Assembly: GCF_016919725.2 (NCBI RefSeq)
Contig: NZ_JAJERH010000005.1
Location: forward strand, 91,850-155,849
Direction of reading: 5' to 3'
Length of the DNA: 64,000 nucleotides
Origin: Virgibacillus sp. AGTR
GTDB taxonomy: Bacteria > Bacillota > Bacilli > Bacillales > Amphibacillaceae
Below the pieces are notes generated by a model that worked only from the letters and a program-made list of their open reading frames with translations, searched no databases and was not told where the DNA came from. The position numbers were made by a program, and so were the translations under genes. Of this stretch, positions 30,318 to 52,921 are shown in pieces; within the stretch, counting starts at the first letter, position 1; the number at the start of each line of letters is the position of its first letter.

Positions 30318-30560
30318 TTATATAAAGTGAAACTTCCATCCAGCTTTTACTAAAACAAATACGTACAAAGGCTTAAATCGCCACGTCCTGTGGCAACGCC
30401 TTTGTGACCTACTTCCATGTAGGCCCGAACCAATCGGACATTTACTGGCAGTCGTTTCCTCACTTATCATTAGTGATTTCATTTTATTGCTTGATGTGAG
30501 GGTTTTACGACAAGTTACATGTGAAATACATTCGTATGTTGATTCATCCATAAGCAATCA
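30318..30560. repeat. Structured intergenic element with strong hairpins
   Basis: ACAAAGGC (30365) pairs with GCCTTTGT (30398-30405), and inside it GCCAC pairs with GTGGC. A second hairpin CCTAC/GTAGG follows at about 30408-30424. The flank AAAGTGAAACTTCCATC recurs near 16761. A 79-codon minus-strand frame across it has no family resemblance and seems to be chance. Only one full copy is present in this window, so calling it a repeat family is partly recollection of similar elements in Bacillaceae. Bases 30561-30700 hold nothing evident. Confidence 0.5.
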
Positions 30561-49908: not shown

Positions 49909-50739
49909 TTACTTTCTCTCTGCTTTTTGTAGTTCAGCATGTGCCTTTTTAACTACATCTTCTATTTCGACATCCGTAACTGTAATTCCTTTTTTTTCTT
50001 TTTGCCAGCCAAAGTGTGCCAGAAATTCTATGTTGCCATCACCGCCAGTAATCGGTGAGTGAGTTATATCAAATAGATCATATGATTCACTCATAGCAAA
50101 ATCAACAATGGTTGACAATACAGACTGATGTACATTTTCATCTCGAACAATACCTTTTTTTCCTACTTGTTCTTTCCCAGCTTCAAATTGAGGTTTAATT
50201 AAAGCAACAATATCACTGTTTTCAGTAAGTAATCGTTTTAATACTGGTAAAATAAGCTTTAAGGATATGAATGAAACATCAATTGTAGCAAAATTTGGTT
50301 TACCCTGTGTTAACATTTCAGGGGTGACATATCGAAAGTTTGTACGTTCCATAACTACTACACGATCATCATTTCGTAACTTCCAATCGAGCTGATTATA
50401 ACCAACATCAATGGCATAACATAGTTGTGCCCCATTTTGCAAAGCACAATCAGTAAATCCTCCGGTTGATGAACCAACATCCACCATAATTTTATTTTCA
50501 GTAGAGATATCAAATGTTTGCAATGCTTTTTCTAGCTTCAGTCCTCCCCTACCAACGTACGGTAGTAATTTACCCTTAACGGTTAACGGAGTTTCTTCAT
50601 CAATCTTCATTCCTGGCTTGTCCAATCGTTCATGTTCATTAAATACAAGGCCAGCCATGATCATACGTTTTGCTCGTTCTCTCGATTCCACTAAGTTTTT
50701 TTCTACTAATAATACATCTAATCGTTTTTTTTTACTCAT
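49909..50739 (-). CDS. yqxC: TlyA-family rRNA 2'-O-methyltransferase/hemolysin-like protein (YqxC)
   Basis: The 276-residue protein has an N-terminal S4 RNA-binding domain (RLDVLLVEKNLVESRERAKR) and an FtsJ-type Rossmann methyltransferase domain. The SAM motif MVDVGSSTGGFTDCAL lies near residue 93, with KLDW-like and DVSFISLKLILPVLKRL segments after it. TlyA relatives in mycobacteria methylate ribosomal RNA; some are annotated as hemolysins. The exact target here is unknown. It lies directly after oapA. In many Bacilli dxs is found at this place, but here there is none. Confidence 0.92.
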   Translation of the reverse strand: MSKKKRLDVLLVEKNLVESRERAKRMIMAGLVFNEHERLDKPGMKIDEETPLTVKGKLLPYVGRGGLKLEKALQTFDISTENKIMVDVGSSTGGFTDCALQNGAQLCYAIDVGYNQLDWKLRNDDRVVVMERTNFRYVTPEMLTQGKPNFATIDVSFISLKLILPVLKRLLTENSDIVALIKPQFEAGKEQVGKKGIVRDENVHQSVLSTIVDFAMSESYDLFDITHSPITGGDGNIEFLAHFGWQKEKKGITVTDVEIEDVVKKAHAELQKAERK

Positions 50740-50757: not shown

Positions 50758-51333
50758 CTAATTTTTGGGTAGTATTCTTATTTTTAATTTATTTTCTATA
50801 ACAGATATTACTTTTCCAGCGAAGAAAATAATCGAGGTTGAGGCATTTATCGCAAAAAATTTGCCTAGCGCCTTACCTCCAACAGTAATAGCAGCAACTA
50901 CACTTGTCAGTAGAACAGAAATCGTTATTTGAACGGTCGATCCTTCTCCATGACCTAATAAATTTGCCATTTGTAATACAACAATGGCTGAAGCTGTTCC
51001 ACTCACTATACCTGAAATATCTCCTATCACATCATTACAAAAGCTAGCAAACCTATCAGCATTTCGGATAATGATAACCGCTTCTTTAGCGCCTGTTACT
51101 TTTTCTGCGGCCATTGCATGAAACGGTGCCTCATCAGCAGCTGTAGAAGCAATACCTAACATATCAAATACAACGCCGACAAATACTATCATAAATACAA
51201 GAAGTAAACCAATTATCCAAATAACTCCACTCAATATAGATGACGAGATAATTGAAAAAATAGCCGCTAACACAAAAGTGATAACGGCAATAGTTAGACT
51301 AAATTTAATCGATCGTTTTACGTGTGATTTCAT
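50758..51333 (-). CDS. oapA: OLE-associated membrane protein OapA
   Basis: OapA is the membrane protein that binds the OLE RNA and helps bring it to the membrane in Halalkalibacterium (Bacillus) halodurans, where the pair affects tolerance to cold, ethanol and magnesium. This 191-residue protein has about four membrane segments: residues about 13-33, 35-60, 115-140 and 150-175. Between the second and third lies a soluble stretch, EAPFHAMAAEKVTGAKEAVI. The C-terminus is basic (NKLKIRILPKN). It starts about 40 bases after the OLE RNA and 18 bases before yqxC. The assignment rests on layout, length and position after OLE; I recall the family but did not align it. Confidence 0.88.
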   Translation of the reverse strand: MKSHVKRSIKFSLTIAVITFVLAAIFSIISSSILSGVIWIIGLLLVFMIVFVGVVFDMLGIASTAADEAPFHAMAAEKVTGAKEAVIIIRNADRFASFCNDVIGDISGIVSGTASAIVVLQMANLLGHGEGSTVQITISVLLTSVVAAITVGGKALGKFFAINASTSIIFFAGKVISVIENKLKIRILPKN

Positions 51334-51372
51334 TTCATACCTCTATTATATAAGATATTCATTCTTTTTATG

Positions 51373-51986
51373 TAAGAGAAGGAATGGTCATGTAAAAGGT
51401 AAAAACTGTGGCTTAGGTCCAGTAGGTTTTCCCAGTTGATTACCCCGTGTTGCCACGAAAGGCGGTTCCCCTTTAAAATCAACTTAGCTTCGTCGCCAAA
51501 AGCTAGACTGGATTACCACTTAGTCCACACTATAATCCCTTTTATATGTCATACGAACAGTCTAGGAGATTTCCTCAACAGTTCTTAACCGCTCCCTAGC
51601 CTCTTTTGCAGTGCTGATTTCATAGAGATGAAAATAAGCAAACTAGTGGCCATCTAATTTGTTATTTTAAGACTCTAATCCCCTCAGGCACCACTCAAGG
51701 CAGGCTACGCTGCATATTAGGTGTCCCTTACCATATCTGCAGGTTCATACCCCATTCCATAATGATAACTAGGCTTAGCTATCACTACAGAGATGGGCCT
51801 CCGCGGTAATCGGGTCAACGCCCACATGCCTTTGTGGATCGCCCGAAAACCTTAACTCCCAGCATAGACCCAAGGCTGGGCGCCTCAAGCCTACACAAGG
51901 AACTTCATCGATGTGCCCTTTGGCGGATTTTTAGGCCCGCCTTCAGGTACGGAGAACTGACTAGAATACTGCACCATTCCTTTGTT
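51373..51986 (-). ncRNA. ole: OLE (ornate large extremophilic) RNA
   Basis: The gap between ispA and oapA holds about 610 bases on the minus strand without any convincing gene, but with high GC and many self-complementary blocks compared to its surroundings. This matches OLE RNA in length, genomic place (after ispA, before oapA), and structure. The ends pair: AAGGAATGGT at the 5' side (51973-51982) with ACCATTCCTT at the 3' side (51379-51388). Internal hairpins include GGCGGGCC with GGTTTTTAG-type neighbours near 51930, and GCCCAGCC with GGCTGGG near 51868. In H. halodurans OLE forms a membrane ribonucleoprotein with OapA. Exact ends are inferred from the pairing and the promoter. Confidence 0.9.
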
Positions 51987-51992
51987 AGTTTA

Positions 51993-52021
51993 ATTATAGC
52001 ATATTTAAAAGGAAAGTTCTA
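51993..52021 (-). promoter_or_regulatory. Candidate promoter of the OLE RNA
   Basis: On the minus strand an extended -10 (TGCTATAAT, perfect TATAAT) is preceded, after 17 bases, by a weak -35 (TAGAAC). It would start transcription at about 51986, just before the 5' strand of the closing stem. It lies only 10-40 bases from the ispA stop. Confidence 0.55.
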
Positions 52022-52030
52022 TTTCTGATT

Positions 52031-52921
52031 TTAATGGTCTCGTTGACTAAAATACTCCGTTAAATCCATTAACACCGATTCTTGTGCATTAGCTTTTTGT
52101 AATGCCGCTTTAGCCTTATCTACATACCACGTTTTCTTTTCGATAGCACCTTCAAGCCCTAGCAATTTTGGATAGGTACTTTTCTGATTTGATTCATCAC
52201 TACCAACAGGTTTACCAAGCTTTGCTTCATCTCCCATTATATCTAGAATATCATCCTGAACTTGAAAAATTAATCCCAAATAATAAGAGAATTCTTTTAG
52301 ATGCATGAGCTCTGTCCTTGATGCTCCTCCAAGAAATGCCCCAGCATAGACCGCAAACCGTAATAGTTCACCTGTTTTATGTGCATGAATTTGTTCAAGC
52401 TCCTCTAGGGTTACCGGTTGATTCTCTGCTTGCATATCTAAAATTTGCCCAGCTACCATACCTTTAGGCCCACTTGCTTCTGTTAATACCTGGAGTATTT
52501 CTACCTTTTGATCAGCAGTCAATTGAGAATCATTAGCTATTAGTTCGAAGCTGTATGTAAGCAATGCATCACCAGCTAAAATTGCTGTTGCCTCATCAAA
52601 AGCTTTATGATTTGTCAACATTCCTCGTCGATAGTCATCATCATCCATCGCGGGTAGATCGTCATGAATGAGTGAATAAGTGTGGATCATCTCTAAAGCT
52701 GCCGCAGTTGTCAGTGTAATAGCCGTTTTCTTTCCATAAACCTCATAGCTTGCTAATAATAAAATTGGTCTTAATCGTTTTCCGCCAGCTTTAACAGAAT
52801 AAATCATTGATTGTTTTAACGTTTCAGGAATTTGGATGGTATCCAATTTTTCCAGAAGGGTTTTATCAATCAATTGTCTGTATTCCTGTAAATAATCTTT
52901 CATATTACGCAACACTGTCAT
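52031..52921 (-). CDS. ispA: Geranyl/farnesyl diphosphate synthase
   Basis: IspA condenses dimethylallyl or geranyl diphosphate with isopentenyl diphosphate to make farnesyl diphosphate, the precursor of undecaprenyl carriers, menaquinone and heme side chains. The 296-residue protein has the first aspartate-rich motif in [19 protein letters not shown] near residue 90 and the second in [13 protein letters not shown] near residue 230. [11 protein letters not shown] near residue 52 binds diphosphate. The ATG overlaps the xseB stop (ATGA). A downstream in-frame ATG at MKDYLQ is an alternative. It is followed by OLE instead of dxs. Confidence 0.96.

Follow-up and report, generated by a model that had tools for sequence, protein, structure and literature searches.

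The window, that is, the whole 64,000-nucleotide stretch of Virgibacillus sp. AGTR DNA that was analysed, contains on its minus strand a long gap without a protein-coding gene between ispA (farnesyl diphosphate synthase; 52031..52921; NF045485, 412.7 bits) and a downstream gene for a 191-residue protein (50758..51333), which raises the question of what this gap encodes and how its product is delimited from the message that follows. In the first-pass annotation, the gap had been attributed to OLE RNA, one of the largest and most strongly conserved RNAs of bacteria for which no biochemical task is known, and the downstream gene to its protein partner, OapA. The covariance model named there as the check, Rfam RF01071, was aligned over its whole length (model 1–616) to the minus strand at 51368..51993 with a score of 524.5 bits, about tenfold over the threshold of 50, and this match accounts for 626 of the bases between ispA and oapA. 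The gap itself had been put at about 610 bases, which falls short of the real distance of 697 bases but is close to the length of the predicted mature RNA (see below); its high GC content was borne out by values of 0.42–0.50 in three 300-base windows within the RNA versus 0.33–0.42 outside. OLE variants with short or missing P7–P9 exist (PMC11332333), and the full-model alignment identifies the full-length form here, with no short or missing P7–P9.

A single OLE match is present in each of the eight genomes of the genus examined, AGTR included. The order ispA–OLE–oapA is kept in all 80 named related loci, ten of which were submitted to Rfam and all ten confirmed for OLE; the nearest named loci found through OapA belong to Virgibacillus (V. 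salexigens, 93% identical). On the minus strand of the window the order is ispA, OLE, oapA, and tlyA (49909..50739, minus strand), the last lying 18 bases past oapA with no dxs in between, and frames further upstream were read by eye as xseB, xseA, and folD, and those downstream as argR and recN. The oapA product carries DVIGD at residues 101–105, matching the DxxxD motif reported as distinctive of OapA (PMC11332333), and this motif is found in 81 of 81 rows. The four membrane spans previously assigned to the protein are compatible with a 19-residue hydropathy scan, which gave five peaks in four separate regions, although the scan does not fix their number. OapA showed no match in Pfam or NCBIfam at E 0.001 and none in the PDB at E 1, and no relatives were found in viral contigs; with regard to the CNNM-related membrane fold expected of OapA, PF01595 gave weak matches in some relatives to frames of ~200 aa that were taken to be OapA.

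As in the Halalkalibacterium halodurans OLE–OapA system, the AGTR genome encodes OapB, OapC, and bS21. The OapB gene (L141) is flanked by frames that visual reading assigned to adk and infA, and its product has 'OLE-associated protein B' (PDB 7k9b, E 4.2e-31) as the nearest solved structure; OapC/YbxF was found with E 1.8e-22, and a bS21 gene is present in 8/8 genus genomes. The OapC gene (L110) had seemed to be broken by two TAG triplets, which turned out to lie outside the reading frame, itself intact with 84 codons ahead of its stop. Whereas at most one full-size CNNM (MpfA-like) protein is typical beside OLE/OapA (PMC11332333), the AGTR genome encodes two. CNNM matches of at least 124 bits occur at least once in 45 of 49 related OLE genomes and at least twice in 17 of them, and OapA and CNNM thus coexist in these genomes.

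Collectively, the full-model Rfam score, the DxxxD motif, and the constant position of OLE before oapA uphold the assignment to the OLE RNA–OapA system. The locus almost certainly comprises a full-length OLE gene followed by oapA, with an RNA product that likely folds into the membrane-bound OLE–OapA stress particle; how that particle assembles and acts under stress follows published work, the present analysis dealing with genes and RNA sequence. For the locus as a whole, we hold with good confidence that the best explanation is such a gene pair and particle together with a predicted cut by EndoA at UACAUA that would form the 3′ end of the RNA, the last element being graded separately below. 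The class is already known, this copy is probably catalogued too, and by itself it is ordinary; its value comes from a fixed UACAUA after the RNA and from the dxs-less clusters, which, with a predicted promoter, are what goes beyond the first-pass annotation.

Secondary structure was assessed in an alignment of the window RNA, 80 named sequences, and 3 genus sequences (L005 left out; 84 reduced to 83 distinct rows). When the 158 Rfam pairs were mapped onto the window RNA, 152 were standard pairs; over the 83 rows, 92.7% of the cells are paired versus a mean of 81.7 in 200 shuffles, and double changes are seen in 104 of the 158 pairs versus 74.2 in the shuffles. On three measures the OLE structure lies above all 200 shuffles, a result that is not to be read as a probability because the rows are related. 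Moreover, the perfect ten-base pairing of the two ends described earlier was recovered as a terminal helix, in which the 5′ strand AAGGAAUGGU (51973..51982, minus strand; RNA 12–21) pairs with the 3′ strand ACCAUUCCUU (51379..51388, minus strand; RNA 606–615), covarying across the 83 rows. Of the cells of this helix, 95.6% are paired versus a shuffle mean of 88.5, and 54 show a double change versus 14.6; the helix thus exceeds chance in both respects, is unpaired in the Rfam structure line for the window match, and is presumably P1 of the published OLE models. The GGCC of the P9.3 loop (51648..51651, minus strand; RNA 343–346), which forms a symmetric kissing loop joining two RNAs in the published OLE dimer (PMC12286853), is retained by all but one of the 83 rows, and the window shares this loop, the full-length RNA, and an adjoining oapA with DxxxD with the H. 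halodurans system. The P9.3 arm that bears the GGCC is partly missing from the OLE of Alteribacter natronophilus (L088, 5246–5846), which still scores 510.9 bits.

At the 5′ end, an extended −10 element, TGCTATAAT (51993..52001, minus strand), stands directly before the terminal helix, with a weak −35-like TAGAAC (3/6 matches) at 52016–52021 of the same strand. TGn followed by a hexamer with no more than one mismatch to TATAAT is found in 75 of 83 rows versus 6% of shuffles, and a −35 with at least 4/6 matches in 35 of 83 rows versus 12.5 in shuffles; the proposed promoter, with its −35 of 3/6, is absent from the list given by a simple promoter scan. In H. halodurans, ole is reported to have its own promoter (PMC9723947). 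Transcription of the AGTR RNA from its own promoter would start 3–4 nt before the terminal helix. As the first Rfam position falls inside the −10 element, the first model positions are probably untranscribed from this promoter here. The predicted transcript, with both ends deduced, spans ~51374–51986 (~613 nt), beginning 3–4 nt ahead of the helix and running 5 nt beyond it, and the length given for the H. halodurans RNA is ~630 nt (PMC9723947).

At the 3′ end, the hexamer UACAUA (51369..51374, minus strand; RNA 620–625) lies 4 nt past the terminal helix. TACATA follows this helix in 77 of 83 rows, in 76 of them at a distance of 8–16 nt from an anchor in the helix 3′ strand, the A of its ACC; after shuffling, 3.2% of 45-base stretches contain it. 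In these 76 rows each of the six positions carries 2.0 bits, versus at most 0.42 bits in the flanks, and the hexamer is present in all eight genus loci when L005 is read separately. In a junction control, TACATA was found before oapA in 72 of 80 loci, whereas six other junction sites gave it in 3, 0, 4, and 0 rows (four sites, 80 rows each) and in 2 and 2 rows (two sites, 79 rows each). Inside OLE, UACAUA was seen once against 6.4 expected (83 rows of related sequences). The hexamer is missing from 6 of 83 rows and also from the one clostridial OLE examined, on a Pusillibacter plasmid, which suggests that the site may belong to the Bacillaceae. Its mean predicted unpaired probability is 0.59 versus a segment mean of 0.57 (76 rows), so that the site is predicted to be no more accessible than its neighbourhood, which, like the six rows without it, speaks against an EndoA cut. 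By eye, UACAUA might also pair with conserved UAUG blocks in OLE, an idea that was set aside, since it gives at most four pairs with no variation by which it could be judged. No terminator-like site was found in a scan between OLE and oapA, and read-through towards oapA is therefore expected. From its fixation and position, UACAUA is somewhat more likely than not to be an RNA processing site. Relative to published descriptions of the OLE–OapA system, the fixed hexamer appears to be an addition, and neither it nor the dxs-less clusters nor the absence of the P6 mimic described below is reported in the excerpts of the OLE literature covered.

Which nuclease would act at this site? The hexamer is identical to the reported target of Bacillus subtilis EndoA (NdoA/MazF), a stress-linked toxin RNase that cuts U/ACAUA and does so only with A as the sixth letter (PMC11780869), whereas the older motif comprised five letters (PMC6562991). 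The B. subtilis sites are spread over the transcriptome, in contrast to the OLE site, which is conserved where a structured RNA ends and at which cleavage would fall between 51374 and 51373 (minus strand). Because all six letters are identical and the site lies at an RNA boundary without a terminator before the next gene, EndoA is the best single candidate, and we tentatively name it as the nuclease on the strength of this sequence identity. After a U/ACAUA cut, the terminal helix would still close OLE, oapA would retain a ribosome site of its own, and stress that frees EndoA would yield more free OLE. It is thus possible, if on the doubtful side, that OLE is a client of MazEF in the Bacillaceae, with the EndoA cut separating OLE from the oapA message, giving a stable 3′-phosphate end, and raising free OLE under stress. 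If EndoA cuts UACAUA, OLE would be directly linked to a toxin–antitoxin system; if the larger scheme is true, a toxin would be the maturation enzyme of a noncoding RNA and the OLE particle would be connected to growth arrest.

EndoA was not found when the collected loci, including 180 kb (~4%) of the AGTR genome and 620 kb (~13%) of that of one relative, were scanned with a sequence motif, and a text search of the literature yielded nothing relevant tying OLE RNA to MazF. A relative (G003) encodes a 192-aa protein resembling PemK/MazF that ends in a double zinc ribbon at its C terminus (L169, 11596–12174), which was set aside as an EndoA candidate because it carries the zinc ribbon.

Another factor or nuclease could instead trim or protect the OLE 3′ end at UACAUA, the likeness to the EndoA site being coincidental. 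This alternative is a distinct possibility, though a somewhat tenuous one: in data from wild-type B. subtilis, EndoA-type (MazF) cutting is reported not to occur (PMC11780869), and OLE is abundant in H. halodurans in standard growth (PMC9723947), but the letters and length equal those of a strict six-letter nuclease motif, an agreement with a chance of about 1 in 4096 per given hexamer. The same two reports imply that EndoA, if it cuts here, would not be the sole maker of the 3′ end.

The sequence might also act at the DNA level instead of as an RNA cut site, such as by providing a −10 box for an additional promoter that serves oapA. TACATA does lie in an AT-rich stretch near oapA, whose start is 37–175 nt past the ACC anchor, and some rows continue it as TACATAAT, which contains CATAAT. 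Past the sixth letter, however, the information falls to the low flank values noted above and nothing is fixed; TACATA differs from TATAAT at the last T, which is usually fixed in that box; the distance to the terminal helix varies over 8–16 nt; and the simple scan listed no promoter at TACATA. We therefore consider the DNA element unlikely and retain the proposed cleavage of the RNA at UACAUA, with EndoA as the candidate nuclease.

The second feature that sets the AGTR locus apart from the H. halodurans system is the absence of dxs from the cluster. Of the 80 loci, 54 have a dxs gene separating oapA from tlyA, which is missing there from the other 26 and from the window; the gap from oapA to the tlyA match in the 26 dxs-less loci is 21–309 bases. 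DXR and HMG-CoA synthase were searched for in 49 genomes, 26 dxs-less and 23 with dxs (L088 left out). A full-size DXR domain was found in 0/26 dxs-less and 22/23 dxs-bearing genomes, and HMG-CoA synthase in 26/26 and 2/23, respectively; one DXR fragment in a dxs-less genome (G018) scored 23.4 bits, above the family cut-off of 21.7, and was read as another protein. Within the genus, DXR is present in 0/8 and HMG-CoA synthase in 8/8 genomes, and the AGTR HMG-CoA synthase passes the prokaryotic equivalog with 542.7 bits (cut-off, 360.35). The best DXS-domain scores, 23.7 bits in the AGTR genome and 39.4 in the genus, exceed the family cut-off of 21.2, whereas a true DXS scores 391.4 bits, and the weak matches were read as other thiamine-diphosphate enzymes. 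One Virgibacillus is reported to use the mevalonate route (PMC10556750).

On a tree built from four neighbouring proteins (a quick tree that leaves 20 forks open and in which L047 and L086 drew a long-branch warning), the dxs label changes three times, two of the changes being forced by well-supported branches. There were at least two losses, Paraliobacillus being separate from the Virgibacillus–Oceanobacillus–Lentibacillus clade, within which one dxs-bearing metagenome-assembled genome (MAG) is placed. That a MAG amid dxs-less relatives keeps dxs, with a shortened N-terminal domain, is seen at L086 (6588–8378), and neither DXR nor HMG-CoA synthase was seen in its 2.0-Mb assembly. Roseburia sp. 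1XD42-34 (L012) groups with Virgibacillus on the tree, and its Roseburia name is probably wrong.

OLE is nonetheless matched over ~600 nt in all 26 dxs-less loci. As OLE and oapA persist in clusters that have lost dxs, in genomes with HMG-CoA synthase and no full-size dxr, OLE apparently has no need of Dxs. A functional tie of OLE to Dxs or the MEP isoprenoid route, which the frequent position of dxs beside ole and oapA has led others to propose (PMC10898510) and to which the 54 dxs-bearing loci lend some support, is thus very improbable in view of the at least two independent losses with OLE retained and the presence of HMG-CoA synthase without full-size DXR in every dxs-less genome and in all eight genus genomes examined. 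The dxs-less clusters constitute a natural experiment, repeated at least twice, that argues against a need for Dxs. No literature joining OLE RNA with mevalonate or Virgibacillus was found within a search that covered a limited part of the OLE papers.

The AGTR RNA also differs from that of H. halodurans in P6 (51805..51851, minus strand; 5′ strand, RNA 143–152; 3′ strand, RNA 180–189). In H. halodurans, bS21 is reported to bind P6 through CCUCCU, an anti-Shine-Dalgarno mimic of the 16S tail (PMC12054373). The AGTR P6 is without this mimic, and even CCUCC is absent from the entire OLE of the window. Of the 83 P6 3′ strands in the alignment, two contain CCUCC and one contains CCUCCU; anywhere in OLE, CCUCC occurs in 58 of 83 rows, mostly near RNA position 40–59. 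The bS21-bound form was treated as a trait of H. halodurans, not as defining for OLE, and the missing mimic suggests that the bS21 contact seen there cannot depend on the exact CCUCCU in this family. A tie between P6 changes and dxs loss was rejected: the independent dxs-less Paraliobacillus pair has the other P6 type, so the changes follow descent. The main dxs-less clade is distinguished by seven alignment columns, of which Paraliobacillus shares only one.

Two minor observations were made beside the locus itself. A Bacillaceae-1 RNA lies elsewhere in the window at 30356–30423 on the plus strand (58.9 bits). The clostridial OLE mentioned above (L191, 3142–3806; 399.8 bits) is located on the Pusillibacter faecalis plasmid pMM59_01 (NZ_AP023421.1) in an OLE–oapA–dxs–tlyA–(NAD kinase)–argR cluster; this 504-kb plasmid is typed as conjugative and might serve to transfer the OLE system in its entirety.
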